64,000 bases of DNA from Cupriavidus oxalaticus. GTDB taxonomy: Bacteria > Pseudomonadota > Gammaproteobacteria > Burkholderiales > Burkholderiaceae. Below the pieces are notes generated by a model. That model ran no database searches. It was not told the DNA's origin and saw nothing but the letters and a program-made list of their open reading frames with translations. The stretch is taken from contig NZ_CP069812.1 in assembly GCF_016894385.1 (NCBI RefSeq), positions 3,472,001-3,536,000 of the forward strand. Reading direction: 5' to 3'. The position numbers and the translations under genes are program-made. Within the stretch, counting starts at the first letter, position 1, and each line of letters begins with the position of its first letter. This document shows, one piece after another, positions 4,699 through 19,516 of the stretch.

Positions 4699-5529
4699 TT
4701 ACGGCCCTAACGTCCGCTCCACGCTTGCGGCCTCAAGCGGCACCCCAAGAAAGCGCGCGATCTCCACGATCTGTCCATACAGCATCCACTGCCCGTGATG
4801 GATGTTGCAGCCTTGCGCGCGCGCCGCGGCCAGCAGCGCGGTTTCCGGATCCCGCACGACAGCCTCGCAGACCAGCGTGCCGGGCGCCAGGCGCTCTGCC
4901 GGCAACGGCAGTGCATCGTCATCGCGCAGGCCGAGCGACGTGGCGTTGACCACCACGTCGAAGCCGGCCGGGTCGTCGCTACCGGCGCGGATCGCCGCAT
5001 CGGGCAGCGCGGCGCGCAAGCGCTCCACCAGTTGCGCCCCCTTCCCGGCGGAGCGATTGTGGATCACCAGTTCCGCTGGCCGCTCCCGCGCGATGGCGAA
5101 GGCCATGGCCTTGCCGGCGCCGCCGGCCCCGACCTGCAGGACGCGCTTGCCCGCCAGTGCGTGGCCGCGCTCGCGCAGGCCGGCGACGAAGCCGTCGCCG
5201 TCGAAGTTGCCACCGACCCAGATGCGACGGTCACGGTCATAGCGCAGCGCGTTGACCGATCCGACCAGGCGGGCGGTCTCCGTCAGCTCGGCGCACGCCG
5301 CCACGACGGCTTCCTTGTGCGGCACGGTCACTACCATGCCGGCCAGGTTCTTCATCGCCGGGAGACTGTCGAGCAGCACGCGCAACTGCTGGGGCGCGAC
5401 GTGGAACGGCACGCACACCGCATTCAGGCCCTGGCGCGACACCGAGGCATTGAACAGCTGCGGCGTGCGCACCTGGGCGATGGGGTCGGCGATGATGCCG
5501 ACCAACTGGGTATTGCCGTCGATGTGCAT
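4699..5529 (-). CDS. Shikimate dehydrogenase-like oxidoreductase (divergent AroE family)
   Basis: A 276-residue AroE-family protein and the last gene of the 13-gene operon. The catalytic Lys72 (VTVPHK) and Asp110 (NFDGDG) are present, as are GSVNA and the nucleotide-binding GAGGAGKA. But the shikimate-binding SxS motif of true AroE (HSKSP) reads QVRTP at residues 19-23: both serines are replaced. Together with its place in a catabolic operon, this argues for a substrate other than shikimate. Housekeeping aroB and aroK lie elsewhere in this window. It starts 2 bases after the stop of the aldehyde dehydrogenase gene, so it is surely co-translated. A shikimate/quinate-like role cannot be fully excluded. 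Confidence 0.78.
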   Translation of the reverse strand: MHIDGNTQLVGIIADPIAQVRTPQLFNASVSRQGLNAVCVPFHVAPQQLRVLLDSLPAMKNLAGMVVTVPHKEAVVAACAELTETARLVGSVNALRYDRDRRIWVGGNFDGDGFVAGLRERGHALAGKRVLQVGAGGAGKAMAFAIARERPAELVIHNRSAGKGAQLVERLRAALPDAAIRAGSDDPAGFDVVVNATSLGLRDDDALPLPAERLAPGTLVCEAVVRDPETALLAAARAQGCNIHHGQWMLYGQIVEIARFLGVPLEAASVERTLGP

Positions 5530-5531
5530 GC

Positions 5532-6980
5532 TCAGATCCCCGCCATGCAGGTGTACTTGATCACCAGGTAATCCTCGATGCCGTAGTGCGAGCCCTCGCG
5601 GCCCACGCCGGACTGCTTGACGCCGCCGAAGGGCGCCACTTCATTCGAGATCAGGCCGGTATTCACGCCGACCATGCCATATTCCAGCCTTTCGGACACG
5701 CGCCAGACCCGGCCCAGGTCGCGCGCATAGAAGTAGCTGGCCAGGCCGAACTCGGTATCGTTGGCCATGGCCACGACCTCATCCTCGGTGTCGAAGCGGA
5801 ACAGCGGCGCCAGCGGGCCGAAGGTCTCCTCGCGCGCGACCAGCATGCCGGGCGCGACATCGGCCAGCACGGTCGGCTGGAAGAACGAATGGCCGAGCGC
5901 GTGGCGCTGGCCGCCATGCAGCACGCGCGCGCCCTTGCCGACGGCGTCGGCGATGTGCTCCTCCACCTTGGTCACCGCCTTGTCGTCGATCAGCGGGCCG
6001 ATGCGCACGCCATCCTCCATGCCATTGCCGACCTTGAGCGCCGCGACCGCTGCCACCAGCTTCTGCGCAAAGGCGTCATACACGCCCGCCTGTACATAGA
6101 TGCGGTTGGCGCAGACGCAGGTCTGGCCGGCGTTGCGGTACTTCGACACGATCGCGCCTTCCACCGCGGCGTCGAGGTCGGCATCGTCGAACACGATGAA
6201 GGGCGCGTTGCCGCCCAACTCCATCGACACCTTCTTGATGGTCGACGCGGTCTGCGCCATCAGCACGCGGCCCACTTCGGTCGAGCCGGTGAAGGTCAGC
6301 TTGCGCACCAGCGGGTTGCCGCTCATCTCGCCGCCGATGGCACTGGCCGAGCCGGTCACCACCGACAGCACGCCGGCCGGGATGCCGGCACGCTCGGCCA
6401 GCGCCACCAGCGCCAGTGCGGTCAGCGGCGTCTGCGACGCGGGCTTGAGCACCATGGTGCAGCCGACCGCCAGCGCCGGGCCGGCCTTGCGCGTGATCAT
6501 CGCCGCGGGGAAGTTCCACGGCGTGATGGCGGCGCAGACACCGACCGGCTCCTTGGTCACGACGATGCGCTGGCTGCTGACCGGCGCGGGAATGGTATCG
6601 CCGTAGACGCGCTTGCCTTCCTCGGCGAACCATTCGATGAACGACGCGGCGTAGGCGATCTCGCCGCGCGCCTCGGCAATCGGCTTGCCCTGCTCGGCGG
6701 TCATAATGCGTGCCAGGTCTTCCTGGTTGGCCAGGATCAGCTCGAACCACTTGCGCAGCAGCGCCGAGCGTTCCTTGGCGGTGCGCGCGCGCCAGGCGGG
6801 CAGCGCGCGGTTGGCGGCTTCAATGGCCTGGCGGGTCTCGTCGGCGCCCAGCTGCGGCACCTGGCCGACGCGTTCGCCGGTGGCGGGGTTGGTCACGTCG
6901 ATGCGGCGCTCGCCATCGATCCAGCGGCCGTCGATATAGCACTGCTGCCGCAGCAGCGAGGAATCTTGCAGGTTCAGCAT
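5532..6980 (-). CDS. gabD: NAD(P)-dependent aldehyde dehydrogenase, succinate-semialdehyde dehydrogenase type
   Basis: A 482-residue aldehyde dehydrogenase. It has the general-base glutamate in MELGGNAP, the nucleophile cysteine in NAGQTCVC, the cofactor loop FTGSTEVG and the ITPWNFP block. The C-terminal [17 protein letters not shown] resembles the GabD group, which oxidises succinate semialdehyde and related short aldehydes. The frame stays open further upstream, but the ATG at 6980 gives the normal GabD N-terminus. In this operon, next to a 2-oxoacid/acyloin dehydrogenase complex, its likely job is to oxidise the aldehyde product of the pathway; succinate semialdehyde itself is only one possibility. 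Confidence 0.85.
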
Positions 6981-7005
6981 AGTCGGTGTGATGGGTTGGG
7001 CCGTA

Positions 7006-7743
7006 TCAGCCGGCCATATAGAGGCCGCCGTTGACGTGCAGCACTTCGCCCGTGATGAAGCTGGCGGCGCCGCTGCACAGGAAAGCGATCGCGCTGGCGA
7101 CTTCGCGCGGGTGGCCGAGCCGCCGCAGCGGCGTCTGTTCCACCGATTCGGCACCGCGTGTGCGCACCAGTTCGGTCGTCATCGGCGTCTCGATGATGCC
7201 AGGCGACACCGCATTGACACGGGTACGCGGCCCCAGTTCACGCGCCAAGCTGCGCGTAAGGCTCAACAGCGCTCCTTTGGAGGCCGCATAGTGGGCATTG
7301 CTGTAGGCCCCGCGGTGCGCCGCCACCGACGTCAGGTTGACGATGGCGCTGTCCTCGCGCAAGGCCGGCATCGCGCGGCGGACCAGGTAGAAGACGCCGT
7401 CCAGGTTGATGCCAAGCGTCTGGCGCCACTGGTCGTCGGTCATCGATGCGACGGGCTGGGCCCGGTACAGGCCGGCGGACGGCACCAGGAAATCGATGCC
7501 GCCAAAGCGCTCCACCGCCGTGGCCACGGCGCGCGCGCTGTCGTCCGGGCTGGCGGCGTCCATGCGCATCGTGGCGATGCGGTCCGGGTCGCCAAGCGTC
7601 TGCGCGAAGCCGGCCAGGCCGTCCGCATCCAGGTCGGTCAGCACCAGGTTGGCGCCGCCGGCGTGGAACAGGCGTGCGACCTCGCGGCCGATCCCCCCGT
7701 TGGCGCCGGTCAGCAGCAGCGTGCGCGATGCAAAGTCAGACAT
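7006..7743 (-). CDS. Short-chain dehydrogenase/reductase (SDR)
   Basis: A 245-residue classical SDR with the cofactor motif TGANGGIG near the N-terminus, the NLTSVAA catalytic serine, the YAASK active site and the PGIIETPM segment. The ATG at 7743 is preferred because it places the cofactor motif about ten residues in; the open frame upstream runs into the lipoamide dehydrogenase gene. It lies 35 bases downstream of the E3 gene and 25 bases upstream of the aldehyde dehydrogenase gene. A role in oxidising a hydroxyl group of the pathway substrate is inferred; it could equally be annotated as a 3-oxoacyl reductase-like protein. Confidence 0.8.
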   Translation of the reverse strand: MSDFASRTLLLTGANGGIGREVARLFHAGGANLVLTDLDADGLAGFAQTLGDPDRIATMRMDAASPDDSARAVATAVERFGGIDFLVPSAGLYRAQPVASMTDDQWRQTLGINLDGVFYLVRRAMPALREDSAIVNLTSVAAHRGAYSNAHYAASKGALLSLTRSLARELGPRTRVNAVSPGIIETPMTTELVRTRGAESVEQTPLRRLGHPREVASAIAFLCSGAASFITGEVLHVNGGLYMAG

Positions 7744-7778
7744 GCGGTGTCTCCATGCGGTCGTTTGGTCGTTTCGGT

Positions 7779-9170
7779 TCAGATATGCAGGGCGCGGCCG
7801 TAGGCGTCCAGCACAGCCTCGTGCATCGCCTCGGACAGGGTCGGGTGCGGCAGCACGGCGGACATCAGTTCGGCCTCGGTGGTCTCCAGCGCCTGCGCAA
7901 TGCCGTAGCCCTGGATCATCTCGGTCACCTCGTCGCCCACCATGTGGGCGCCCAGCAGCTCGCCGCTGCCTTCGTCGAACACCACCTTGGCCAGGCCGGC
8001 CGTCGCGCCCATCGCGATGGCCTTGCCGTTGGCCGAGAACGGGAACCTGCCGACGCGCACGCGGTGGCCCGCCGCGATCGCCTGCGCTTCGGTCAGGCCG
8101 ATGCTGGCCACCTGCGGATGGCTGTAGGTGCATGCCGGAATCCGGCGCGGGTCGAGCGGGTGCGGCTGCAGGCCGGCGATGTTCTCGACGCAGATCACGC
8201 CTTCATGGCTGGCCTTGTGCGCGAGCCACGGCGGGCCGGCCACGTCGCCGATGGCGTAGATGCCCGGCTCGCCGGTGCGGCCAAACCCGTCCGTGACGAT
8301 ATGCGTGCGCTCCACCCGGACCCCTGTGCCTTCCAGCCCGAGCTCCTCGACATTGCCGACGATGCCGGCCGCGACCAGCACCACGTCGGTCTCAAGCTGC
8401 GCGGATGCGCCGCCGGCCAGCGTCACCGTCCACCCGGACGCACCGCGCCGGGCCCCTTCCACGCGCGTGCCGGCGTGGATGGCGATACCGTCGCGCCGGA
8501 GCTGGCTCGCCACCTGCGCGGCAATCTCCGCATCCTCCGTCGGCAGGATGCGCTCGGCCATCTCGACCAGAGTCACCTGCACGCCCACCGCGTGATAGAA
8601 GCTCGCGAACTCGACGCCGATCGCCCCCGCGCCCACGATCAGCATGCGGCGCGGGATCGACGGCGGCGCCAGCGCCTCGCGGTAGCTCCAGACGGTGCTG
8701 CCGTCGACCGGCAATTGCGGCAGCGGCCGCGCGCGGGCCCCGGTGGCAAGGACGATATGGCCGGCACCAATGATGCTGGCCTGGCCGTCTGCCGTGCTTA
8801 CCTGGAGCCGACCCTGACCCGCCAGCCGCCCATGGCCGTTGAGCACCGTGACGCCATGCTTCTTCATCAGGTGCGCCACGCCCTTGTTGAGCTGCGCCGC
8901 GACCGCGCGCGAACGCGCCACCATGGCCGGGACATCCGCGCGGGGCTCGGCCACGGCGACGCCATAAGCCGCGGCGTCCTTCACCAGCCGCAGCACGTCG
9001 GCCGAGCGCAGCAGCGCCTTGGTCGGGATGCAGCCCCAGTTCAGGCAGATGCCGCCGAGCGCGGCCTTCTCGATCACGGCAGTGCGCATGCCCAGTTGCG
9101 CGGCGCGGATGGCGGCCACGTAGCCGCCGGGCCCGCCGCCGACAATGGCCAAATCGAACGAAGATGTCAT
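7779..9170 (-). CDS. lpdA: Dihydrolipoyl dehydrogenase (E3 component)
   Basis: A 463-residue flavin disulfide reductase that reoxidises the lipoyl group of the E2 subunit with NAD. It has the FAD motif GGGPGGYVAA, the redox pair in GGICLNWGCIPTK, the NAD motif VGAGAIGVEF, the second FAD motif AIGDVAGPPWLAHKA and the C-terminal His-Glu pair in HPTLSE. A strong AGGAGG ribosome site sits just ahead of the ATG at 9170, which settles the start against the longer open frame. It follows E2 by 10 bases, the normal order E1-E2-E3. It is probably dedicated to this complex and not the housekeeping Lpd. Confidence 0.9.
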   Translation of the reverse strand: MTSSFDLAIVGGGPGGYVAAIRAAQLGMRTAVIEKAALGGICLNWGCIPTKALLRSADVLRLVKDAAAYGVAVAEPRADVPAMVARSRAVAAQLNKGVAHLMKKHGVTVLNGHGRLAGQGRLQVSTADGQASIIGAGHIVLATGARARPLPQLPVDGSTVWSYREALAPPSIPRRMLIVGAGAIGVEFASFYHAVGVQVTLVEMAERILPTEDAEIAAQVASQLRRDGIAIHAGTRVEGARRGASGWTVTLAGGASAQLETDVVLVAAGIVGNVEELGLEGTGVRVERTHIVTDGFGRTGEPGIYAIGDVAGPPWLAHKASHEGVICVENIAGLQPHPLDPRRIPACTYSHPQVASIGLTEAQAIAAGHRVRVGRFPFSANGKAIAMGATAGLAKVVFDEGSGELLGAHMVGDEVTEMIQGYGIAQALETTEAELMSAVLPHPTLSEAMHEAVLDAYGRALHI

Positions 9171-9180
9171 CGCGCCTCCT

Positions 9181-10446
9181 TCAGACCAGCATCGCCAGCG
9201 GGTTTTCCAGCAGGCGCCGGAACGCGGCCAGCCACTTCGCCGCCAGCGCGCCGTCGATGGCGCGATGATCGACCGACAGCGTGCAGCGCATGACCTGGGC
9301 CACCTCGACCTGGCCGTCGCGCACCACCGGCATCGGCTGCGTGACCCCCACCGCCAGGATGGCCGCCTCTGGCGGATTGATGATGGCGGAAAACTCGGCC
9401 ACGCCATGCATGCCAAGGTTGCTGACGCTGAAGCTGCCGCCCTGGTACTCGTCCGGGCGCAGCTGGCCCGCGCGCGCGCGGGCCGCCAGTTCAGCGATCT
9501 CCGCGCTGATCACCGACAGCGGCTTGCTGTCGGCCGCGCGTACGATCGGCGTGATCAGACCGGTGTCGGTGGACACGGCCACGGCGATGTCGGCGCTGCG
9601 GAACTGGCGCATCGCGGTATCGGTCCATGCCACGTTGGCTTCCGGCACCTCGCGCAGCGCCACGGCCACCGCGCGCACCACGAAGTCGTTGACGGAGATC
9701 TTGCGCGCGGCGCCGGCGTTGATCTCGGCGCGCAGCGCCAGCAGCCGGTCCATCCGGCAATCCACCGACAGATAGAAATGCGGGATAGTGGACTTGCTCT
9801 CCGCCAGCCGGCGCGCAATGGTCCGCCGCATATTGCTGTGCGGAATCTCGATGAAATCGTCGGTGCCGGCATTCCGCACCGGTGCCGGCCTGGCGGCGGC
9901 CGGCGCCGGGGTCGCGATGGGGGTTGCGGCGGGAGTCGCGGTGAGCGCCTCAGCCCGGGCCGCCTCCACGTCGCGCCTGACAATCCGCCCGTTCGGGCCG
10001 CTGCCCGCCAGCGTGGCGAGATCGAGCCCGCGTTGCGCGGCCAGCCGCCGTGCCAGCGGGCTCGCGAAGATGCGGGCTGGTGCGGTGGCGGGTTCCGAGG
10101 CCAGGGGCGCTACAGGCACTGCGGGCTCCTGTGCCAACGGCTGCGATTCAGGCACCGCGATGCCGCCGGACGCAGCGAGCAGCGCATCGATATCCGCGTG
10201 CGTCTCGCCATTGACCAGCAGCACGCCGATCGGCGCGCCGACCTCCACCTCCTGACCGGCGCGGACCAGCATCCGGCCGAGCGTGCCGGCGGTGTCGGCA
10301 TTGAGTTCGACGATCGCCTTGTCGGTCTCGATCTCGGCAATGCAGTCGCCCACGGCAATCTTGTCGCCTTCCTGCCGGGTCCAGGCCTGCAGGGTGGCGT
10401 GGGTGGCATTGGCAGCCACCTCGGGCATGCGCAGCAGGATGGCCAT
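9181..10446 (-). CDS. Dihydrolipoamide acyltransferase (E2 component of a 2-oxoacid/acyloin dehydrogenase complex)
   Basis: A 421-residue E2 protein with one N-terminal lipoyl domain (lipoyl lysine in IETDKA, about residue 43), an Ala/Pro-rich linker, an E1/E3-binding domain (FASPLARRLAAQRGLDL, GPNGRI), a second Ala/Pro linker, and the catalytic domain ending in SVDHRAIDGALAA with the acyltransferase HxxxDG residues. It takes the acyl group from E1 and transfers it to CoA. The gene overlaps the preceding VOC gene by one base (TGATG). Which acyl chain it handles cannot be told; acetoin-type (AcoC), pyruvate and branched-chain E2 proteins share this layout. Confidence 0.87.
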   Translation of the reverse strand: MAILLRMPEVAANATHATLQAWTRQEGDKIAVGDCIAEIETDKAIVELNADTAGTLGRMLVRAGQEVEVGAPIGVLLVNGETHADIDALLAASGGIAVPESQPLAQEPAVPVAPLASEPATAPARIFASPLARRLAAQRGLDLATLAGSGPNGRIVRRDVEAARAEALTATPAATPIATPAPAAARPAPVRNAGTDDFIEIPHSNMRRTIARRLAESKSTIPHFYLSVDCRMDRLLALRAEINAGAARKISVNDFVVRAVAVALREVPEANVAWTDTAMRQFRSADIAVAVSTDTGLITPIVRAADSKPLSVISAEIAELAARARAGQLRPDEYQGGSFSVSNLGMHGVAEFSAIINPPEAAILAVGVTQPMPVVRDGQVEVAQVMRCTLSVDHRAIDGALAAKWLAAFRRLLENPLAMLV

Positions 10447-10940
10447 CAGGCATCTCCCTTCGCAAGCAGGTCGGGACGATAGCCGGCGATATCCGAGTAC
10501 TGGACGATCTCCAGCACGTTGCCCTCCGGATCCCGGCAGAACGCCAGGTAGGTGCCCGGGCGGACTTCGATGCGGCGCGGACCGGTCATGAATTCCACGC
10601 CCTGCGCCACCAGCGCATCGACCACGGCCTGGATGTCGTCGACGATGAAGGTCAGGTACGACGCATTGGCCTTGTCCAGGATATACGCCGTCACCGGCTC
10701 GGCGGCGGGCGGCCGCTGCGGCGCCAGCAGCTTGATGCGCTCGCCGTACGGGGTCTGCAGGCGCACGACGGTATAGCCCTGCGCATGCATCGCGGCCTGC
10801 GCCGACTTCTCCGCCGGCACCACCACCTCGCTGACGAAGGTGAAGCCCAGCACGTCTTCGTAGAAGCGGCGCATGCGGGGCAGATCACGGACCGCGATGC
10901 CGACTTCGAGTGGTACCACCATGTTCATCTTCATTTCCAT
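10446..10940 (-). CDS. VOC superfamily (glyoxalase/dioxygenase-fold) protein
   Basis: A 164-residue protein made of two VOC half-modules: GIAVRDLPRMRRFYEDVLGF at the start, and YLTFIVDDIQAVVDALVAQG with the DPEGNVLEIVQY end that supplies a metal-ligand glutamate. Family members are glyoxalases, extradiol dioxygenases, epimerases or resistance proteins; this one cannot be placed more exactly. It sits between the E1 and E2 genes, 11 bases after E1 and overlapping E2 by one base, so it is part of the pathway. Isomerisation or epimerisation of a hydroxy-keto intermediate is a possible role, but this is inference. Two near starts (10940, 10934) exist. Confidence 0.72.
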   Translation of the reverse strand: MEMKMNMVVPLEVGIAVRDLPRMRRFYEDVLGFTFVSEVVVPAEKSAQAAMHAQGYTVVRLQTPYGERIKLLAPQRPPAAEPVTAYILDKANASYLTFIVDDIQAVVDALVAQGVEFMTGPRRIEVRPGTYLAFCRDPEGNVLEIVQYSDIAGYRPDLLAKGDA

Positions 10941-10951
10941 GATTCCCCGGT

Positions 10952-13141
10952 TCAGGCCTGGCCTTTCTCGCGCATCACGTGGCGCAGGCCGTCGATGACT
11001 TCTTCGGTGCGCGCCGCCGCCGCCCGCTCAAGCACCTTGGAGATGCTCGGTGCCGCTTCCGCGCCGGTGACGCGCTGCACGGGCTGGTCCAGCCAGTCGA
11101 AGCAGCGCCGCTGGAGTTCGTCGGCAAGCCAGCCGCCGTAGGACGTCCCGCGCGCGCCCTGCTCCACGATCAGCACATTGTTGGTCTTGCGGATGCTGGC
11201 TTCAATGGTTTCCCAGTCCAGGCTGGCGCGGTCGAGCCAGCGCAGGTCGATCACCTCGGCATCGACGCCGGTCTTTTCCACCGCTTCCAGCGTATGGCCG
11301 ACCATCGACAGGTAGGTGATGACCGTGACCTCGCCGCCCTGGCGCCGCACCGCGGCCTTGCCCAGCGGGAGGTGGTAATCCAGGTCGTCCACCGGGCCGA
11401 GCGCCGAGCTGTTGTACAGATCCACATGCTCGATCACCAGCACCGGGTCCTTGCAGGCCAGCGCGGTGTTCATCAGCCCCACATAGTCGAACGGGTTCGA
11501 CGGCGCCACGATGCGCCAGCCCGGATTGGTCGCGAAGATGCCGGCCGGGTCCATCGAATGCTGCGAGCCGTAGCCGGTGCCCATTGCCACCTTGGTGCGC
11601 AGCACCAGCGGCACGTCGCTCTCGCCGCCGAACATGTGGCGGGCCTTGCCGACCTGGTTGAAGACCTGGTCGGCGGCCACCCACATGAAATCGGGGTACA
11701 TGAACTCCACCACCGGCTTGAAGCGGCCGTCCAGCGCCACGCCGCCGCCCAGGCCGACAAAGGCGTTCTCGCTGATCGGCGTGCCAAGCACGCGCTCGGG
11801 AAAGCGGTCGCGCAGCCCGCGCGTGGCGCCGTTGGTGCCGCCCTTGAGCCGATGGACATCCTCGCCCATGACCACCACCGTGGGGTCGGTTTCCATGCGC
11901 CGGCCCATCACGTCGGCCACCACGTCGACGAACTTGCGCGTGTCGAGCATGCCGGTGAAGGTCTCCTGCGCTTCATAGCGCAGCCCTTCCAGCTCGTTCA
12001 GCTCGCTGCGGATGCCCACGTCGCGGAAGTCTGGGCTCGGCCATAGTTCCGGGCGGATGATGCGCTTGCCCGGCTTGCCGGACGGGTCGGGCTGCGTCAG
12101 CGCCGCCATGGCGGCCTGCATCGCGGCCCTGACGCGCTCGCGCAGGGCCTGCACCTGCTCCGCCGTGACCAGGCCGCGCGCCTGCATGCGGTGCGCCAGC
12201 AGCTCGAGCGGGTCGCGCGCGCGCCACTGCTGCTCCTCCTCCTTGCTGCGATAGCCGAACGCACTGCCCGGGAACGGGCCGTTCTGGTGGAAGAAGCGAT
12301 ACACGTCCGCCTCGATCACGGCCGGGCCGTGGCCGGCGCGCATATGGGCCAGCGCCTGCTGCATCGCCAGGTGCACGGCCAGCGGGTCCATGCCGTCGAC
12401 CTTCCAGCTGCGGATGCCGAAGCCCAGCCCGCGCGCCGACAGGCGCGGCTCGGCGGTCGACTCCGCCACGGTGGTGGAGACCGCGTAGCCGTTGTTCTCG
12501 ATGAAGAAGCACAACGGCAGCTTCCACGCGGCGGCCAGGTTCATCGTCTCCAGCACCGAGCCGATGTTGACCGCGCCGTCGCCGAAGTAGGTCACCGCCA
12601 CCGCGTCGGTGCCGGCATGCTTATGCGCCCAGGCCGCGCCCGCCGCCAGCGGCACGCCGCCGCCGACGATGGCGTTGGTGCCCAGCGCGCCGGCCTCGGC
12701 CCACTGCAGGTGCATCGAGCCGCCGCGGCCCTTGCAGAAGCCCTGTGCCAGCCCGAGGATCTCCGCCAGCGTGCGCTGCAGCAGCGTCTGCACGCCGGCG
12801 GTGAACGGCGCATCCGGATCCAGCCCCTTCGGCGCCAGGTAGCCGAGCGCCTTGGACAGGAACTGGTGGTGGCCGCGGTGCGAGCCGTTGACCTGGTCGG
12901 CGCCGGTCAGGCCCACGATGGAGCCCGCCGCGCCGCCCTCCTGCCCGATGCTGGAGTGCGCCGGCCCATGGACCAGGCCCTCGGCGGCCAGTTCCAGCAC
13001 GGCTTCTTCAAAGCCGCGGATCAGGTGCATGTGGGTCAGCATGGTGCCCAGCAGGCCGGGGGCCGCGCCGGCCCAGTCTTCCTCCGTGGTGCGCAACTCG
13101 ACCCAGTCGGCGCCGGGTTGCAGGGCGATGCATTCAGACAT
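10952..13141 (-). CDS. TPP-dependent 2-oxoacid/acyloin dehydrogenase E1, fused alpha and beta subunits
   Basis: A 729-residue fusion. The first half is an E1 alpha subunit with SSIGQEGGAAG, the SHRGHHQFLSKA block and the thiamine-pyrophosphate motif GDGAVNIGSVLETMNLAAA ending in ENNGYAVST. The second half, from about residue 390, is an E1 beta subunit with GEDVHRLKGGTNGATRGL, PISENAFVGLGGGVALDG and VEFMYPDFMWVAADQVFNQ. It would decarboxylate a 2-oxo acid, or cleave an acyloin as AcoAB does, and pass the acyl unit to the neighbouring E2. The ATG at 13141 is chosen; the longer open frame begins with a low-complexity Thr/Arg stretch. Alpha and beta are separate genes in many relatives, so the fusion is notable. 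Confidence 0.87.
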   Translation of the reverse strand: MSECIALQPGADWVELRTTEEDWAGAAPGLLGTMLTHMHLIRGFEEAVLELAAEGLVHGPAHSSIGQEGGAAGSIVGLTGADQVNGSHRGHHQFLSKALGYLAPKGLDPDAPFTAGVQTLLQRTLAEILGLAQGFCKGRGGSMHLQWAEAGALGTNAIVGGGVPLAAGAAWAHKHAGTDAVAVTYFGDGAVNIGSVLETMNLAAAWKLPLCFFIENNGYAVSTTVAESTAEPRLSARGLGFGIRSWKVDGMDPLAVHLAMQQALAHMRAGHGPAVIEADVYRFFHQNGPFPGSAFGYRSKEEEQQWRARDPLELLAHRMQARGLVTAEQVQALRERVRAAMQAAMAALTQPDPSGKPGKRIIRPELWPSPDFRDVGIRSELNELEGLRYEAQETFTGMLDTRKFVDVVADVMGRRMETDPTVVVMGEDVHRLKGGTNGATRGLRDRFPERVLGTPISENAFVGLGGGVALDGRFKPVVEFMYPDFMWVAADQVFNQVGKARHMFGGESDVPLVLRTKVAMGTGYGSQHSMDPAGIFATNPGWRIVAPSNPFDYVGLMNTALACKDPVLVIEHVDLYNSSALGPVDDLDYHLPLGKAAVRRQGGEVTVITYLSMVGHTLEAVEKTGVDAEVIDLRWLDRASLDWETIEASIRKTNNVLIVEQGARGTSYGGWLADELQRRCFDWLDQPVQRVTGAEAAPSISKVLERAAAARTEEVIDGLRHVMREKGQA

Positions 13142-13213: not shown

Positions 13214-14038
13214 TCAGAAGCCGTCGGCCGTCCAGCCGCCGTCGGAGACCAGCGCGTGGCCGGTGATGAACGCGGCTGCGTCCGACGCCAGGAACAGCGC
13301 CACCTCGGCCATCTCCTCCGGCGTACCGAAGCGGCGCAGCGGCGTGCGCGCCATCAGCGCCTCGGCGTCGAGCGCGCGGCGCTCGATCAGCGAGTCGGTC
13401 AGCGCGGTGCGCGTATAGCCAGGGCAGACGGCATTGACGCGGATATTGTGCTGCGCCCATTCGGCCGCGAGCGACCTGGTCAGCGACACCACGCCGGCCT
13501 TGGCCGCGCAGTAGGCCAGCCGGTTGGCGGACGACACCATGCCCCACATCGACGCCGTGCTCAGGATCACGCCGCCGTTCTGGCGGATCATGCGGCGCGC
13601 GGCGGCCTGGGTGCAGTAGAAAACGCCGGAGAGGTCGATATCGATGGCGCGGCGCCACTCGGCCGGCGTCAGCGCGATCGACGGCTTGTTCATCGAGATG
13701 CCGGCGTTGTTGAGCAGGATGTCGATGCGGCCAAAGTGCGCCTCGACTTCGGCGCAGGCGCGCTCGACCGCCTCGTCGTCGGTGATCGACGCCTGCATGG
13801 TCAGCACCTGCACGCCGGGGAAGGCTGCCTCGAGCTCGTTCCGGGTGGCGGCCAGCCCTTCGGCATCCAGGTCCAGCAGCACCAGCCGCGCGCCGTGGCG
13901 CGCGAAGCCGTGGGCCATGGCGCGGCCAATGCCGCTGGCGCCGCCGGTGTTGAGCACCACCTTGCCTTCCAGGCCGGGGTAGCGGGCCGGGGCGAACGGT
14001 TGCGCGCCGGGAAATCCGGTAAAAGAAGGGGCGTTCAT
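13214..14038 (-). CDS. Short-chain dehydrogenase/reductase (SDR)
   Basis: A 274-residue classical SDR: cofactor motif TGGASGIG, NNAGISM, catalytic serine in LSTASMWG, YCAAK active site and the CPGYTRT segment. A short extension of about 25 residues precedes the Rossmann fold. Its ATG overlaps the livF stop codon by four bases, tying the transporter genes to the catabolic genes in one transcript. It is only loosely similar to the second SDR of the operon (7006-7743), so the two probably act on different carbons or stereoisomers; the substrate is unknown. Confidence 0.82.
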   Translation of the reverse strand: MNAPSFTGFPGAQPFAPARYPGLEGKVVLNTGGASGIGRAMAHGFARHGARLVLLDLDAEGLAATRNELEAAFPGVQVLTMQASITDDEAVERACAEVEAHFGRIDILLNNAGISMNKPSIALTPAEWRRAIDIDLSGVFYCTQAAARRMIRQNGGVILSTASMWGMVSSANRLAYCAAKAGVVSLTRSLAAEWAQHNIRVNAVCPGYTRTALTDSLIERRALDAEALMARTPLRRFGTPEEMAEVALFLASDAAAFITGHALVSDGGWTADGF

Positions 14039-14751
14039 ACCGCGAGCCAGTCCTTGAGTAGTTGGGGGTTGGAGGTCAGTTGTTCGGGGGTGCCTTCAAA
14101 CACGATGCGGCCGTGGCCCATCACGCAGACGCGGCTCGACACCTTGAGCGCGATGGCGAGCTTCTGCTCCACCAGCACGACCGAGACGCCGCGCCGGTGG
14201 ATGTCGCGGATGGCTTCGCCGACCACGGCGACGATCTTGGGTGCCAGGCCTTCGGTGGGCTCGTCGATCAGCATCACCAGCGGGTTGCCCAGCAGCGAGC
14301 GGCACATCGTCAGCATCTGCTGCTCGCCGCCGGACAGGCTGCCGGCCTTGGTGTTGCGGCGCTCCCTGAGGCGCGGGAAGTAGTCGAACATCTGCGCCAC
14401 GGTCCACTGCGGCGCGCCTTCTGGCGCGTGCTGCTCGCCCATGCGCAGGTTCTCGTCGACGGTCAGGTTGGCGAACACCTCGCGCTCCTCGGGCACGTAG
14501 GCGATGCCGCTGCGGCAGATGGCGTACGAGCGTGCGCCGGTCAGCTCGCGGCCACGCAGGCGAATGTGCCCGGCCGAGGGCGGCACCAGCCCCATGATGG
14601 CCTTGAGCGTGGTCGAGCGGCCGGCGCCGTTGCGGCCGAGCAGGCTCACCACCTCGCCCTGGCCGACCTGGAAATCGACGCCATGCAGGATGTGGCTCTT
14701 GCCGTAGTGGGCGTGCAGCTTTTCCACCGACAGCAGCGGTGCGGGGTTCAT
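14035..14751 (-). CDS. livF: Branched-chain amino acid-type ABC transporter ATPase (LivF)
   Basis: A 238-residue ATPase of the hydrophobic amino acid uptake family. The signature LSGGEQQML and Walker B LVMLIDEPTEGLAP are normal. The Walker A motif reads GRNGAGRST (39-47): the usual lysine is Arg45, encoded by CGC at 14617-14619 read on the minus strand. The gene overlaps livG by four bases and the downstream SDR by four bases. It should energise uptake with LivG, LivM and LivH. The ATG at 14751 gives a standard N-terminus; the frame is open further upstream but inside livG. Confidence 0.88.
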   Translation of the reverse strand: MNPAPLLSVEKLHAHYGKSHILHGVDFQVGQGEVVSLLGRNGAGRSTTLKAIMGLVPPSAGHIRLRGRELTGARSYAICRSGIAYVPEEREVFANLTVDENLRMGEQHAPEGAPQWTVAQMFDYFPRLRERRNTKAGSLSGGEQQMLTMCRSLLGNPLVMLIDEPTEGLAPKIVAVVGEAIRDIHRRGVSVVLVEQKLAIALKVSSRVCVMGHGRIVFEGTPEQLTSNPQLLKDWLAV

Positions 14752-15506
14752 ACGCTGACCTCCTCGCCCAGGTAGGCTTCCTTCACGCGGGCGTTGTTGC
14801 GGATTTCGTCGGGGGTTCCTGTGGCGACGATCTCGCCGTAGACCAGCACGCTGATGCGGTCGCTGAGCGAGAACACCACGTCCATGTCGTGCTCCACGAT
14901 CATCAGCGTGCGGCCCTGCGTGACCTCGCGGATCAGCCCCGCGGTGTAGCTGGTCTCCTCGTGCGACATGCCGGCCATGGGCTCGTCGAGCATGATCAGC
15001 TGCGGATCGGACGCCAGCGTCATGGCGATTTCCAGCGAACGCTGCTCGGAATAAGACAGCTCCCCGGCGATCGCTTGCGCGCGGCGCGCAAGCCGCACCT
15101 GCTCCAGCAGGTGCGCGGCTTCCTCGTTGACCGCGCGCGCCTTGTGGGCGAACTTCCACAGCGTGTACTGGAGGCCGTGCCGGCGCATCAGCGCCAGGCG
15201 CAGGTTTTCGAACACGGTCAGGCCGGCAAAGATATTGGTGATCTGGAACGAGCGCGCCAGGCCCCGGCGGTTGATGTCCTGCGGCGAGAGGCCGTGGATC
15301 GGCCTGCCGCCGAGCAGGATCTCGCCACGCGTGCGCGGCAGCCGCCCGGAAATCAGGTGGAACAGCGTGGACTTGCCGGCGCCGTTGGGGCCGATCAGCG
15401 CGTGGCGCTCGCCCGGCACGATGTCCAGGTCGACGCCGCGGATGATGTCGACGTCGCCGAACGACTTGCGCAGCCCGCGCAGCGACAGGATGGGGGATGC
15501 GGTCAT
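14748..15506 (-). CDS. livG: Branched-chain amino acid-type ABC transporter ATPase (LivG)
   Basis: A 252-residue ATPase with an intact Walker A (GPNGAGKST), a Q-loop in ARSFQITNIF, the LivG-style signature LSYSEQRSLEIA in place of LSGGQ, and Walker B LIMLDEPMAGM with the VEHDMDVV switch region. It is the second ATPase of the transporter and the only one of the pair with a normal Walker lysine. It overlaps livM by four bases and livF by four bases. Like other Liv systems it may import compounds other than amino acids, such as aromatic or aliphatic acids; the operon context favours a catabolic substrate. Confidence 0.88.
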   Translation of the reverse strand: MTASPILSLRGLRKSFGDVDIIRGVDLDIVPGERHALIGPNGAGKSTLFHLISGRLPRTRGEILLGGRPIHGLSPQDINRRGLARSFQITNIFAGLTVFENLRLALMRRHGLQYTLWKFAHKARAVNEEAAHLLEQVRLARRAQAIAGELSYSEQRSLEIAMTLASDPQLIMLDEPMAGMSHEETSYTAGLIREVTQGRTLMIVEHDMDVVFSLSDRISVLVYGEIVATGTPDEIRNNARVKEAYLGEEVSV

Positions 15507-16792
15507 GCGGGGTTCCTCCCGGCTTCGATGGCATCGCCGGCGGCGATGTCCGTGGTGTCAGCGTCCTCGCGCAGCCGCTGCCAGCGCTGGCTGGCACGGC
15601 GCGCCAGCAATGCGCCCGCGCCCACCAGCACCGCGGGCGGCAGCCACGTCAGCGGCGACAGCGGCGCCCATTCGCGGCCGAACAGCGGGATCGGCGGCCA
15701 GCCGGCGCCACCATTGAGCGCGGCCAGCGCGCGATAGTCCTGCGAGAAGAAGCGCTGCAGCAGTTCGACGCCGAACACGGTGCCGCCCGCCAGCAGCAGC
15801 GTGGCGGCGACGAACGCGACGGCGATCGGCAGCAGGCGGCGCGCGCCATAAGTCTTGCTGCCCGCCACCCACCAGGTCAGCAGGCCCGAGATGCCGGCCG
15901 GCATGAACAGCATCACCAGCACGAACACGATGCCCTGGTACAGCAGCCACGAGCGCGTCAGGTCGGACACCGCGTAGCCGAAGAACGTCATCAGCGCCGC
16001 ACCGAGCGCGGGACCCAGGAAAACCTTGACGCCGCCGATATAGCTGTTGAGCACCACCGCCGCGGAGACGCTCGACTCGAACACGACATAGTTGGCCGCC
16101 TCCATGTTGATGGCCTGCAGGCCGCCGGCAATGCCGGAGAACGTCGTGGAAATGGCGAACACCAGCACGCTGAGCCGATGGACGTCGTAGCCCAGGAAGC
16201 GCAGCCGGTTGGCGTTCTCGCGCAGGCCCAGCGTCAGGCGGCCGACCGGTGTCAGCGTGTACAGGTAAAGCAGCGCCAGCGACAGCAGCACCCAGGCCAG
16301 CGTCAGGTAGTAGACCTGGTGGCTGTCGCCGAAGGTCAGGCCCCAGGCCGGCATGCGCATGGTGGAGATGCCGGCCTCGCCGCCGAACCAGCTCTTGATG
16401 TGCGGTGCCAGCGCATGCAGCAGCTCGGCCAGCGCCAGCGTGATCATGGCGAAGTAGACGCCGGTGCGCTTGGTGGCGAACCAGCCGGCGGCCAGGCCGA
16501 TGGCCAGCCCCGCCGCGCCGCCCGCCAGCGGCAGCAGCGGCGTGGGCAACAGGCCATTGCCGCCCACGGCGTTCATCGCGTGGACCGTGGCAAAGGCACC
16601 CACGCCGAAGTACGCCGCATGGCCGAACGAGAGCATGCCGCCCTGGCCGCTGAGCAGGTTGAAGGCCATCGCGAACAGCACCGCGATCAGCATCTGGATG
16701 GTCGCGTTGACCAGCGACGGCGACAGCACCGCCGGGGCCGCAACCAGCGCGGCGACGGCCAGCGCCAACAGGATATTGCGGGAATGACGCAT
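15503..16792 (-). CDS. livM: Branched-chain amino acid-type ABC transporter permease (LivM)
   Basis: A 429-residue polytopic inner-membrane permease. It has the LivM family blocks FNLLSGQGGMLSFGHAAYFG and GGVKVFLGPALGAALM, and about ten hydrophobic segments. Compared with typical LivM proteins of 320-360 residues it carries a longer C-terminal part with extra hydrophobic stretches and a polar tail (REDADTTDIAAGD). The ATG at 16792 follows the livH stop by two bases; the longer open frame on this strand crosses livH and is not real. Confidence 0.87.
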   Translation of the reverse strand: MRHSRNILLALAVAALVAAPAVLSPSLVNATIQMLIAVLFAMAFNLLSGQGGMLSFGHAAYFGVGAFATVHAMNAVGGNGLLPTPLLPLAGGAAGLAIGLAAGWFATKRTGVYFAMITLALAELLHALAPHIKSWFGGEAGISTMRMPAWGLTFGDSHQVYYLTLAWVLLSLALLYLYTLTPVGRLTLGLRENANRLRFLGYDVHRLSVLVFAISTTFSGIAGGLQAINMEAANYVVFESSVSAAVVLNSYIGGVKVFLGPALGAALMTFFGYAVSDLTRSWLLYQGIVFVLVMLFMPAGISGLLTWWVAGSKTYGARRLLPIAVAFVAATLLLAGGTVFGVELLQRFFSQDYRALAALNGGAGWPPIPLFGREWAPLSPLTWLPPAVLVGAGALLARRASQRWQRLREDADTTDIAAGDAIEAGRNPA

Positions 16793-16794
16793 GC

Positions 16795-17736
16795 TTACTC
16801 CTTCTCGCCCATCAGGCCGGACGGGCGGCACAGCAGGATCAGCAACATCAGCGCGAACGGGATCGTCGCCGACAGGCTGGACAGCTTGAGGGTCAGCAGC
16901 CCGCCTGCCTCCCTGGCCCAGTCGCCCGCGCCCACCAGCGCCAGCAGGTCGGCCAGGCTGCGGTCCACGCCGACCGACAGCGCCGTCATCAGGCCGATCA
17001 GCAGCGAAGCCACCATGGCGCCCTCCAGCGAGCCGAGCCCGCCGACCACCACCACCACGAAGACCAGCACGCCCAGCTCCAGCGCCATGTTGGGGTTGGT
17101 GGTATAGAAGGCGCCCGCCACCGCCCCGGCCAGGCCGGCCAGCGCCGCGCCGATGCCGAACACGCCCATGAACACCAGCGGCACGTTGTGGCCCAGCGCC
17201 TCGGCCATGCGCGGCTTGTAGATGGCCGAGCGCACCACGATGCCGACGCGCGTGCGGGTCAGCAGCAGGTAGATGACCACGAACATCGCGATGGCCACGA
17301 TGCCCATGAAGACACGGTAGAACGGGTAGGCGGACGCGCCCACGTGGAACGCGGCGAAATCCAGCGACGCGGGCACCCGGTAGTCGACCGGGAAGTTGCC
17401 GAAGAACAGCTTGACCAGCTCGGCGATGATGAACGACAGGCCGAAGGTGAGCAGCAGTTCGTGCGCATGGCCGTGGTGATGGACGCGGCGCAGGAAAAAG
17501 CGCTCCACGGCCACGCCGACCAGCCCCACCAGCAGCGGCGACACCACGATCGCGAACCAGAAGCCGATCACGCCCTGCAGCATGAAGGCAAGGTAGGCGC
17601 CCAGCATGTAGAACGAGGCATGGGCAAAGTTGAGCACGCCCATCATGCCGAAGATGAGCGTCAGGCCGGCGGAGACCATGAACAGCAGCAAGCCGTAGAT
17701 GGCGCCGTTGAGCAGCGAGACGATGAAGTATTCCAT
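16795..17736 (-). CDS. livH: Branched-chain amino acid-type ABC transporter permease (LivH)
   Basis: A 313-residue inner-membrane permease with eight or so hydrophobic segments and LivH hallmarks: LLNGAIYGLLLFMVSAGLTL and GVLNFAHASFYMLGAY near the N-terminus, and VVVGGLGSLEGAMVASLLIG further on. It partners LivM in forming the channel. A spacer of about 250 bases, partly filled by a REP element, separates it from the binding-protein gene upstream. This spacer could lower expression of livH onwards relative to the binding protein, a common arrangement, but that is inference. Confidence 0.88.
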   Translation of the reverse strand: MEYFIVSLLNGAIYGLLLFMVSAGLTLIFGMMGVLNFAHASFYMLGAYLAFMLQGVIGFWFAIVVSPLLVGLVGVAVERFFLRRVHHHGHAHELLLTFGLSFIIAELVKLFFGNFPVDYRVPASLDFAAFHVGASAYPFYRVFMGIVAIAMFVVIYLLLTRTRVGIVVRSAIYKPRMAEALGHNVPLVFMGVFGIGAALAGLAGAVAGAFYTTNPNMALELGVLVFVVVVVGGLGSLEGAMVASLLIGLMTALSVGVDRSLADLLALVGAGDWAREAGGLLTLKLSSLSATIPFALMLLILLCRPSGLMGEKE

Positions 17737-17871
17737 GTGCGTTTCCTGGGAACGAGCCGGGCCGCCGCGCGCCGGGACCAGCCTGTGCGCGTGACGGGTG
17801 CGGCCCGTACGGGCCGCGAACGCGGGGAAGAGGCCTATTGAGGTTCCCGAAATTCACCACAACGTTTCTTG

Positions 17872-17946
17872 CTCGTCGTTCCCGCGCAGGCGGGAACCCA
17901 GTGACTTCAAGCGACGCTGGATTCCCGCCTGCGCGGGAATGACGGT
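17872..17946. repeat. REP-like pair, family 1, copy B (between livK and livH)
   Basis: Two perfect hairpins in inverted orientation: GTTCCCGC/GCGGGAAC (17878-17897) and ATTCCCGC/GCGGGAAT (17921-17940), joined by CCAGTGACTTCAAGCGACGCTGG. The pairing of two inverted REP units is that of a REPIN. It matches copies at 2335-2435 and 27536-27692. In the operon mRNA these hairpins may stabilise the upstream livK message. Confidence 0.8.
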
Positions 17947-17990
17947 GGTGTTTTGGCGCTGTCGCGAATTAGGGAAAGCTCGATAGAGAC

Positions 17991-19238
17991 TTAGGCCGGG
18001 CGCTGCATCTTGCAGCTGGCCTGCGGCGGCGTGGCGGCTTCCGCGGCGGAGAAGGTCTTCACCGGCTTGAAGCCCATGTCGGTGCCGTCCACCTTGAACC
18101 GGGCCTCCTTGCTGACCACCGACACCACCATCGGCAACAGCACCTGGTGGTCGTCGGCGCGCATGCTCAGTTCACCCAGCGGCCCCTTGAGCGTGGCCTT
18201 CTCCAGCGACTTGGCCAGCGCGGTGATGTTGAGCTTGCCGTTCTCGGGCCTGACCGTCTTCAGGGCCTGGCCCAGCATCTCGATGCCGAACACCGCCTGC
18301 GGCTCGACATAGGCGGGCAAGTGCCCTGCCTTGGCCTTGAAATCGCTGGCGAACTTCTCGCCCTCGGCACCGCCCGCTTCCGCGTTGAACGGATGGGCGA
18401 CATAGTGGCCGAGCGCCACGTCGCCGGCATTGCCGAGATTGCCCGGCTGGTCCAGGAACACCGTGGCGAAGCGGGTCTTGAGGCCAGCCGCCTTGGTCGA
18501 CTTCATCAGCAGCAGCAAGTCGTTCGACCAGTTGCCGGTCATCGCGGTATCGGCCTTGGTCGCGGCGATCTTGGCCACGTAAGGCGAAAAATCCTGCACC
18601 TTGTTGACGTCGTGCAGCGTCTTCTCCACCACCTGGTAGCCGCCCGCGGCCGCATCGCCGGCGATCGCCTTCTCCATGTCCATGCCCCAGGAATAGTTCT
18701 GGTTGATGGAGTACACGCGCGTGCCGAGCGCGTTGAGCGGCTTCATCGCGCCGACCAGCGCCTTGACGCGGATCTCGGCATTGGTGGCGAACTTGAAATG
18801 GTAGAAGTGGCACTTCTCGCCAGTCAGCTCCAGCGCTTCGCCGCCGACATTGAGGAACAGGATTTCCTTGCCCGGGTTGCGCAGGTTGTACTTGCGCACG
18901 TCCTCGGTCAGCTGGCCCGAGACCGCGGACGACGCGCCCTGGACCACGATCTGCACGCCGTCGGCAATGGCGGCCTTGAGCTTGTCGGCGGCGCCGGCAG
19001 GGCCACCCTGGTTGTCGTACTCCACCAGTTGCAGCGGTTCGCCGTTCCAGCCCCCGGCGGCATTGACCTTGTCGATCGCATAGCGCGCCGCGGTGCGGAA
19101 CATCAGGCCGGTCGAAGCCTGCGGGCCCGACAGCGTCTCCACGATGGCGATCTTGACCGGCGCCGCGTAGGCGGCACCCGTCAGCAGCGAGAGGGCTGCG
19201 CATGCGACAAGACGACTGAGAAAACGGCTACCGCTCAT
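17991..19238 (-). CDS. livK: ABC transporter periplasmic substrate-binding protein (LivK type)
   Basis: A 415-residue type 1 periplasmic binding protein. Residues 1-25 form a signal peptide (basic start, hydrophobic core, cleavage after AAYA). The mature part starts PVKIAIVETLSGPQASTG, the usual opening of LivK-type proteins, with GWNGEPLQLVEYDNQGGPAGAADKLK and later QNYSWGMDMEKA. It should bind the transported compound in the periplasm. As first gene of the operon, it lies behind a promoter region with a GntR operator 78 bases upstream. The ligand cannot be read; members of this family bind amino acids, amides, urea and aromatic acids. Confidence 0.87.
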   Translation of the reverse strand: MSGSRFLSRLVACAALSLLTGAAYAAPVKIAIVETLSGPQASTGLMFRTAARYAIDKVNAAGGWNGEPLQLVEYDNQGGPAGAADKLKAAIADGVQIVVQGASSAVSGQLTEDVRKYNLRNPGKEILFLNVGGEALELTGEKCHFYHFKFATNAEIRVKALVGAMKPLNALGTRVYSINQNYSWGMDMEKAIAGDAAAGGYQVVEKTLHDVNKVQDFSPYVAKIAATKADTAMTGNWSNDLLLLMKSTKAAGLKTRFATVFLDQPGNLGNAGDVALGHYVAHPFNAEAGGAEGEKFASDFKAKAGHLPAYVEPQAVFGIEMLGQALKTVRPENGKLNITALAKSLEKATLKGPLGELSMRADDHQVLLPMVVSVVSKEARFKVDGTDMGFKPVKTFSAAEAATPPQASCKMQRPA

Positions 19239-19294
19239 GGTTGTCTCCTGTTGTGATGGTCTGGCGGAACTGGCCTGGATCGAGCCCCTCAGAT

Positions 19295-19305
19295 TGGCTC
19301 GACCA
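19295..19305. promoter_or_regulatory. Secondary GntR operator half-site
   Basis: TGGCTCGACCA: one intact GACCA half-site, the other half degenerate. Its start is 21 bases from that of the perfect operator, about two helical turns, so both would be bound on the same DNA face. Confidence 0.4.
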
Positions 19306-19315
19306 CTTTTATAAT

Positions 19316-19326
19316 TGGTCAGACCA
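19316..19326. promoter_or_regulatory. Primary operator of the FadR-type GntR regulator
   Basis: A perfect palindrome TGGTC-A-GACCA. FadR-subfamily GntR regulators are known to bind TGGTNNNACCA-like sites. It lies between the divergent livK and gntR genes, 78 bases before livK and next to its likely -10 box. Confidence 0.65.
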
Positions 19327-19449
19327 GTGAAATATAGGGAGTCCAGCGGGCGTCGTCAATGTCGTATCGGCGGATCTAGGGTTTCCACGGGGCCGGCAAT
19401 TTCCGGGCAAGTTCCAGCGAAGTCGTGCGCCGGGCATGCTACATTAACC

Positions 19450-19460
19450 TGTAAGACCAG
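19450..19460. promoter_or_regulatory. Possible autoregulatory GntR operator
   Basis: CTGTAAGACCA with an intact GACCA half-site, 56 bases upstream of the regulator gene. It would allow self-regulation. The left half is degenerate, so this is a weaker call. Confidence 0.35.
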
Positions 19461-19516
19461 TTAAACACACACCGAGCCATGCCAGGCATCAAGCGCCCGT
19501 CCGAGGGGGAAGAAAG

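Follow-up and report, generated by a model that had tools for sequence, protein, structure and literature searches.

A GntR-associated import and catabolic gene block with a fused-E1 dehydrogenase complex in Cupriavidus oxalaticus

Acetoin dehydrogenase is described, in the available part of the source, as an enzyme of oxidative cleavage that passes activated acetaldehyde to lipoamide, with an acetyl donor preferred and many ketones serving as acceptors (PMC12247030). This system (AcoABC plus E3) and the pyruvate dehydrogenase complex (PDC; alpha2beta2 E1) are the closest described relatives of a 13-gene block in Cupriavidus oxalaticus, which we analysed within a stretch of 64,000 nucleotides (the window; contig NZ_CP069812.1, positions 3,472,001 to 3,536,000) of a 6.69-Mb genome in two contigs. 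With acetoin dehydrogenase the block shares the E1-E2-E3 logic and thiamine diphosphate (ThDP), and two paralogues of its E1 with the same loop signature lie in clusters with AcoC-type E2s; unlike that system, it has a fused E1 in a clade of its own, a PDC-type E2, an adjacent GntR gene and an ABC importer, and the genome holds a separate aco locus. With the PDC it shares an E2 over the curated cut-off, an LpdA-type E3 and related E1 domains, whereas its E1 falls under the cut-offs for the alpha subunit of pyruvate dehydrogenase (PDH) and has an odd alpha loop with extra residues, and an importer and dehydrogenases stand in the same unit. Our best explanation, to which we assign a probability of roughly 0.45, is that the operon is a portable, GntR-associated unit of import and catabolism whose fused-E1 complex cleaves an acyloin to acyl-CoA and an aldehyde. 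The probable outcome is the cleavage of a small compound to acetyl-CoA and one other fragment.

The gene block and its E1-E2-E3 complex

The first-pass annotation of this DNA had placed 13 genes on one strand, in the order LivK, LivH, LivM, LivG, LivF, short-chain dehydrogenase 1 (SDR1), fused E1, VOC, E2, E3, SDR2, aldehyde dehydrogenase (ALDH) and AroE-like. Open reading frames (ORFs) and domain searches bear this out for the minus strand of 4699-19238, with a divergent GntR/FCD gene. Pfam and NCBIfam models were run on 10 of the 14 proteins, GntR among them; the LivH, LivM, LivG and LivF names come from reading and from annotated homologous loci. Counts out of 51 refer to well-covered loci, in which E1 is flanked by 7.5 kb or more of sequence on both sides.

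17991..19238, minus strand: LivK-type periplasmic binding protein, 415 aa, Peripla_BP_6 (Pfam PF13458, 224.7 bits; 569 bits to PDB 4xfk/7jfn)
16795..17736, minus strand: LivH-type permease, 313 aa (ORF and start; homologues in 31/51 loci; named by reading)
15503..16792, minus strand: LivM-type permease, 429 aa (ORF and start; locus comparison; named by reading)
14748..15506, minus strand: LivG-type ATPase, 252 aa (ORF and start; locus comparison; named by reading)
14035..14751, minus strand: LivF-type ATPase, 238 aa (ORF and start; locus comparison; named by reading)
13214..14038, minus strand: SDR1, 274 aa (Pfam; TGxxxGIG and YxxxK motifs; near E1 in 46/51 loci)
10952..13141, minus strand: fused alpha/beta E1 of a 2-oxoacid/acetoin-type dehydrogenase complex, 729 aa (Pfam E1_dh, Transket_pyr, Transketolase_C; alignment, tree, motifs)
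10446..10940, minus strand: VOC-fold protein, 164 aa (Pfam PF00903; alignment; AlphaFold2 pLDDT 92.5)
9181..10446, minus strand: PDC-type E2 with lipoyl, E3-binding and acyltransferase domains, 421 aa (Pfam; TIGR01349)
7779..9170, minus strand: E3 dihydrolipoyl dehydrogenase, 463 aa (TIGR01350, 529.4 bits vs cut-off 408.8; redox motif CxxxxC)
7006..7743, minus strand: SDR2, 245 aa (Pfam and motifs; near E1 in 49/51 loci; 369.8 bits to PDB 5t5q)
5532..6980, minus strand: ALDH of succinate-semialdehyde dehydrogenase (SSADH) type, 482 aa (NF008415; TIGR01780)
4699..5529, minus strand: AroE-like reductase, 276 aa (Pfam, NCBIfam, alignment; catalytic Lys/Asp kept)
19517..20278, plus strand: divergent GntR/FCD regulator (Pfam GntR and FCD)

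With the chosen starts, four of the 12 junctions overlap, by 4, 4, 4 and 1 bp, as had been claimed; the wording "many 1-4 base overlaps" is slightly generous, since seven junctions have gaps of 2-72 bp and the widest, LivK-LivH, measures 254 bp. The hallmarks of the 2-oxoacid/acetoin dehydrogenase superfamily are present, namely a ThDP E1, a lipoyl E2 with an E3-binding domain and an LpdA-type E3 with their motifs. Catalytic motifs are intact in E1 (ThDP motif, TPISE and QHS, by alignment and motif scan), E3, both SDRs and the ALDH.

Relatives of E1 are encoded in at least 582 stretches among the matches listed; the fused E1 is widespread and not unique to this operon. The 80 loci compared are the best 80 of these at least 582 stretches, and distant contexts are therefore under-represented. 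On the acetoin model the E2 would resemble AcoC, and this did not hold: the window protein carries the PF00198 acyltransferase domain instead of the AcoC architecture (lipoyl plus alpha/beta hydrolase) and passes the PDC E2 model TIGR01349 (473.1 vs 445). The DHRxxDG motif is kept in 79 of the 80 relatives' E2 ORFs, and the same model is passed by the Acinetobacter E2 (L054, 457.5), with the Streptomyces E2 (L094, 412.8) below 445.

The fused E1 clade and the bond it may cleave

Among 41 chosen rows, which included the AcoAB proteins of the same genome and of P. phenoliruptrix as well as PDH-like E1s, the window E1 lies within a clade of 33 (support 100/100) apart from the AcoAB rows and the PDH-like E1s, although long branches (PDH-like outgroup 8.63, L106 1.77, L018 1.05) leave the deep placement unsure. 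An active-site-loop signature, YRxxHQxGxxxGSxFxYR, is found in 33/33 clade rows and 0/8 others; at its place AcoA reads RFYGHFEGDAQTYR. The window E1 also scores under the PDH alpha cut-offs (TIGR03182, 254.1 vs 393.85; TIGR03181, 195.3 vs 411.35), and the AcoA of the same genome is likewise under the TIGR03182 cut-off. Judged by sequence, the fused E1 clade is separate from the AcoAB and PDH-like E1s compared. By tree position, signature and fused subunit architecture this E1 is not of the AcoAB type, on which the earlier proposal drew.

Two paralogues with the same signature, at 48–50% identity, bear on the reaction; they are the two examined among the relatives at that identity, and both lie in clusters with AcoC-type E2s. 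In one (L132, G138:C12:76500-96000; 50%), an AcoC-type E2 with lipoyl, E3-binding and alpha/beta-hydrolase domains (Pfam) directly follows E1 and VOC. In the other, from Shinella (L106), an annotated acetoin dehydrogenase E2 lies ~3.2 kb away from E1, separated from it by genes on the opposite strand. These pairings suggest that the E1 clade can work with either kind of E2, PDC-type or AcoC-type, which is our main, indirect reason for preferring acyloin cleavage over 2-oxoacid decarboxylation. The acyloin-type cleavage proposed earlier is thus indirectly favoured by these paralogues, even though neither E1 nor E2 is of the AcoAB/AcoC type on which the proposal was modelled. The L132 cluster further contains an SsuA-type binding protein (below cut-off), a HisD homologue, an SDR, a zinc-dependent alcohol dehydrogenase (Zn-ADH) and, by reading, a LacI-like regulator, and it resembles a system for a diol or sulfonate-type substrate.

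The same evidence has to be weighed for a 2-oxoacid dehydrogenase, in which the SDRs would turn a 2-hydroxy acid into a 2-oxo acid for E1-E2-E3 to decarboxylate to acyl-CoA, with no aldehyde formed. The passing of TIGR01349 by the E2s of the window and of Acinetobacter L054, the intact residues that E1 shares with 2-oxoacid E1s and the lack of a window-like ALDH near E1 in 41/51 loci all agree with such an enzyme. The E1 score under TIGR03182 speaks against it, a score pattern that AcoA of this genome shows too, as do a loop unlike the PDH-like and AcoA loops seen and the two same-signature paralogues clustered with AcoC-type E2s. We regard decarboxylation as credible but somewhat doubtful.

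In favour of a second acetoin or 2,3-butanediol system of the ordinary kind, SDR1 and SDR2 both score on the butanediol dehydrogenase model, under its cut-off of 270 (233.7 and 201.2), and an SDR2 homologue (53%) lies ~9 kb from an aco locus in P. phenoliruptrix. However, the genome already has an aco locus (L130, G000:C1:147000-163000, ~5468-9761), with acoX-acoA-acoB (by order and resemblance) and acoC, whose product has an Abhydrolase domain and passes PRK14875 (491.7 vs 307). The E1 outside the AcoAB branch and the E2 not of AcoC type argue further against such a system, as does the importer, since to our knowledge acetoin uptake needs no ABC importer. An ordinary acetoin or butanediol system is therefore very improbable here.

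Import, accessory enzymes and the fate of the products

All five component types of the Liv/HAAT branched-chain amino acid transporters are present. The binding protein departs from that family, since LIVBP Glu226, which we take to be the amino-acid-binding residue, aligns with LivK Phe261 (counted along the alignment). The LivK model has a pLDDT of 87.3. Its closest solved relatives, 4xfk/7jfn, are a Brucella ovis protein that held acetate or nitrate in the crystal and, in the available part of the source, showed no binding after a threonine soak (PMC11376275). Ligand data for P. aeruginosa PA4913 (seen in part; PMC6829864) were dropped as a guide to LivK, as 4xfk is the B. ovis protein. The Liv-type ABC system would thus import a small carboxylate and not a branched-chain amino acid.

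An operon for amino acid or amine catabolism, with a transporter that takes up a modified amino acid, would suit the Liv type of the importer, and amidase and RidA genes stand near E1 in Paenarthrobacter (L099) and Salipiger (L102), with aminotransferases near some relatives. We consider it improbable: Glu226 aligns with Phe261, threonine did not bind to the B. ovis relative in the part of the report available, and no deaminase or aminotransferase was found by Pfam and NCBIfam among the ten window proteins searched.

The AroE-like protein resembles the shikimate dehydrogenase family (including 4k28 and 7cok) in its fold domains and in K72 and D110, presumably the catalytic Lys/Asp of shikimate dehydrogenase, which are invariant in 24 sequences. 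It differs at the SxS motif, which we take to be the shikimate-carboxylate-binding motif: in these 24 sequences Val, Ile or Leu stands in place of the first Ser, and Phe or Leu in place of the Thr of NTDG; the window protein reads IAQVRTP with Phe for that Thr. Additionally, it reaches none of the shikimate dehydrogenase cut-offs shown (163.8 vs 252 for the best model). Its solved relatives include 4k28 (152 bits) and the 5-ketofructose reductase 7cok (108 bits), and because of the latter, action on sugar-type carbonyls is deemed possible. Compared with VOC metalloenzymes such as glyoxalase I and methylmalonyl-CoA epimerase, the window VOC protein lacks the usual metal-ligand His: Glu12 and Tyr95 stand at two expected His positions and Glu144 is retained. 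Across 22 sequences, E12, E67 and E144 are kept and the usual His ligands are not. The four best curated models give 30–34 bits vs cut-offs of 115–148.

The ALDH has its catalytic Cys and scores over two curated SSADH models (NF008415, 871 vs 828; TIGR01780, 760.8 vs 646.35), as for succinate-semialdehyde dehydrogenase GabD. Unlike GabD, it stands in this operon context, and it was not found beside E1 in most relatives examined. In the 51 well-covered loci, E2 accompanies E1 in 50, SDR2 in 49, SDR1 in 46, GntR in 42, E3 in 41 and VOC in 34, followed by each of the five Liv genes (31), AroE-like (30) and ALDH (10). The best 80 loci give E2 79, SDR1 68, SDR2 67, GntR 56, E3 54, VOC 51, LivK 45, AroE-like 42 and ALDH 21. 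These counts apply identity cut-offs of 35–60% by gene (ALDH 45%, AroE-like 35%), and divergent homologues, a separate actinobacterial VOC family among them, are uncounted; a looser clustering of 93 loci puts 26 ALDHs in one group. Aldehyde oxidation had been proposed as the last step, which does not stand as put forward, the window-like ALDH being peripheral (10/51 loci at ≥45% identity; 26/93 in the looser clustering).

The ALDH suggests a special case of our best explanation, in which a carboxylated acyloin such as 4-hydroxy-5-oxohexanoate, derived from 4,5-dihydroxyhexanoate or its lactone, would be cleaved to acetyl-CoA and succinic semialdehyde, the latter going to succinate via the ALDH. 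The scores over the SSADH cut-offs point that way, the PDC-type E2 implies acetyl, and records of Rhodococcus, Pseudomonas oryzihabitans, Rhodovulum, Phaeobacter and Streptomyces show SSADH-annotated ALDHs no more than a few kb from E1. But the substrate is a deduction, most E1s have no SSADH-type ALDH nearby, and SSADH-type enzymes can have broad specificity. To this special case we give little credence.

Transporters are evidently swapped among relatives. A gene read as an MHS-type symporter sits between E3 and AroE in L054-L057, and other ABC transporter types occur in Rhizobium, Salipiger and Streptomyces records. A second Liv set, recognised by its LivH, lies near E1 in 12/93 loci, often accompanied by genes for an SDR and a quinone-oxidoreductase-like protein. 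A "module B" (second LivK, LivH, LivMG fusion and LivF plus SDR) was seen in L107, L108, L123 and L124 and in Alcaligenaceae, for example L046-L053. It is often joined by quinone-oxidoreductase-like, GMC, AroE-like or acetolactate-synthase-like (PRK06112) genes and sometimes lies near the E1 cluster. On Thalassospira and Variovorax plasmids (L125 and L127), the stretch read carries the same Liv type without an E1, and genes for an SDR and for a beta-keto-acid cleavage enzyme follow it; the cleavage enzyme of L127 scores over the cut-off of NF053538 (3,5-dioxohexanoate enzyme, 520.8 vs 430). On a Rhodococcus opacus plasmid (L100), a gene at 7608-8357 for a FolD-like tetrahydrofolate dehydrogenase/cyclohydrolase lies ~3.6 kb from E1 with an insertion sequence (IS) element between, possibly a sign of a one-carbon product in that locus. 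Repeated VOC and E2 matches behind E1 in Achromobacter pulmonis (L065, ~12181-16158) are perhaps a partial tandem duplication. The search for contexts covered E1, LivK, AroE-like and SDR2 on plasmids and E1, LivK and SDR2 in genome samples. Within that range no single substrate could be named, the neighbours being too varied (amidase/RidA, GMC oxidoreductase, second Liv set, HisD-like, beta-keto-acid cleavage enzyme).

Returning to acyloin cleavage, the steps after import may run as follows. SDR1, SDR2 and the AroE-like enzyme would interconvert hydroxyl and keto groups to yield a vicinal hydroxyketone (an acyloin), with VOC possibly serving, as a speculation, as an epimerase or isomerase of it. 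The fused E1, an enzyme of recognised type, would then use ThDP to cleave the C-C bond beside the carbonyl of this presumed substrate. The acyl group would pass to the E2 lipoyl arm and on to acyl-CoA, most likely acetyl-CoA because the E2 is PDC-type, and E3 would reoxidise the arm with NAD to NADH. The other half would be an aldehyde, which the SSADH-type ALDH may oxidise where present, a step that is plausible here and not conserved.

Several points weigh against this reading. The proposed check of E1 active-site residues gave a loop signature distinct from those of AcoA and the PDH-like E1s, but in that comparison no residue separating acyloin from 2-oxoacid E1s was found, and AcoB and human PDH beta share QHS. 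The acyloin argument has a small base in two paralogue loci, in one of which the link is loose, and 2-oxoacid decarboxylation would suit a PDC-type E2 just as well. The argument for a carboxylate ligand rests on ions from the crystal solution of a single homologue. With the aco locus already in the genome, acetoin itself is unlikely to be the substrate. Finally, ALDH and AroE-like are not core genes, being near E1 in 10/51 and 30/51 loci, so the aldehyde branch is not core.

Predicted operator, distribution and meaning

Three short elements lie between LivK and the GntR gene:

19331..19359, minus strand: promoter-like site TTGACG-17-TATATT for the operon, upstream of LivK (motif scan of 4500-20500)
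19315..19326, strand-neutral: predicted GntR operator, palindrome TTGGTCAGACCA (consensus matches upstream of relatives' genes)
19449..19460, strand-neutral: possible second, imperfect operator CTGTAAGACCAG (sequence; similar sites in some relatives)

The spacing between the -10 box and the palindrome TTGGTCAGACCA is 4 bases. The number of promoter-like sites in 4500-20500 is at chance level (1 found vs 1.1 expected), and the site is therefore argued from its position at the operon start. Minus-strand terminator-like matches in the same range are a weak one within AroE and a strong stem (20397-20363) outside the operon.

Sites matching the consensus TKGTMNKACMA with at most one mismatch, compared with the expectation from block shuffles of dinucleotides, occur upstream of SDR2 in 43/45 relative loci (2.65 expected), upstream of LivK in 37/47 (4.05) and upstream of GntR in 17/58 (3.3). 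The consensus was derived from matches in the same loci, so these counts are no independent test; many loci come from one genus (Achromobacter), and a single divergent intergenic region often lies before both SDR2 and LivK. The weaker signal before GntR is explained by its place behind SDR2 in many relatives. Many one-mismatch matches upstream of LivK plainly differ from the palindrome, and the SDR2-upstream sites are the convincing set. The regulator belongs to the GntR/FadR family, having both the GntR helix-turn-helix (HTH) and FCD domains (Pfam), and would bind these palindromes as its predicted operators. In its own genome, the pattern TTGGTCNGACCA gave 3 matches vs 3 in the reversed control, and there is therefore no evidence for more regulon members.

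Conserved synteny, which the first-pass annotation had named as a check, was found. Of the 80 best E1 loci, many of them incomplete at their ends, 4 show the exact order of all 13 genes. Together with the divergent GntR, this order occurs in 7 of 8 same-genus regions, and the eighth stops at a contig end after ALDH. The eight regions were drawn from 9 other genus genomes with a match, some of them also among the 80. As the identical order recurs in other genomes, the arrangement is no chance. These operator counts and the synteny strengthen the view of the block as a unit of uptake and catabolism, associated with GntR, that includes a CoA-dependent step by E1-E2-E3.

Within the genus, E1 (E ≤ 1e-200) is found in 10 of 60 genomes, the window's own included. 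In a 300-genome sample of the host's order, 10 have an E1 match at E ≤ 1e-100 and 5, own included, reach at least 73% identity; in a class sample of 369 genomes, LivK (E ≤ 1e-80) and SDR2 (E ≤ 1e-60) were each found in one, the genome itself. Two genus E1s are 98% identical to the window's, that of Cupriavidus sp. amp6 (98%) and a C. oxalaticus one (97.9%). One unit lies beside sspB-sspA-petC, as in the window, and the second, in C. oxalaticus, lies on a 1.19-Mb replicon with no sspB-sspA-petC in the stretch read. The 13-gene block thus appears to move as a whole from one genomic place to another within the genus.

Beside the GntR gene, 20363-20479 holds a tRNA-Thr (tgt) gene and a strong bidirectional terminator-like stem, so that the operon adjoins a tRNA-Thr gene in this genome. 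Downstream, plus-strand genes at 9-4673 were read as enolase-superfamily, zinc alcohol dehydrogenase and NERD-helicase-like; no homologues of them at ≥35% identity were found in the eight same-genus stretches.

We recognised no paper describing this operon in the open-licence literature, in agreement with the earlier statement that the gene combination is not described. The E1-E2-E3 scheme is known; the fused E1 clade, the palindrome and the transport-enzyme unit are without a description found in that literature. Annotated records name the E1 relatives generically or wrongly, as alpha-ketoacid dehydrogenase, pyruvate dehydrogenase or MFS transporter. A broader reading, which we consider arguable and on balance unlikely, is that the fused-E1 systems are a third functional branch of E1-E2-E3 complexes in Proteobacteria and Actinobacteria, performing CoA-dependent cleavage of carboxylated acyloins or vicinal diketones with interchangeable front ends (the Liv importer, other symporters or ABC systems, and GMC, amidase or HisD-like enzymes).

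The available part of the structural report, set beside our finding, suggests that the B. ovis protein (4xfk/7jfn), named a Leu/Ile/Val/Thr/Ala-binding protein, may carry the wrong ligand name. The E1 signature, the recurring palindrome and the portable 13-gene unit make the function directly testable. If the third branch is real, a class of natural hydroxyketones or diols that have so far gone unrecognised as growth substrates would be catabolised by a family whose E1 relatives in public genomes number in the hundreds under generic or wrong names.

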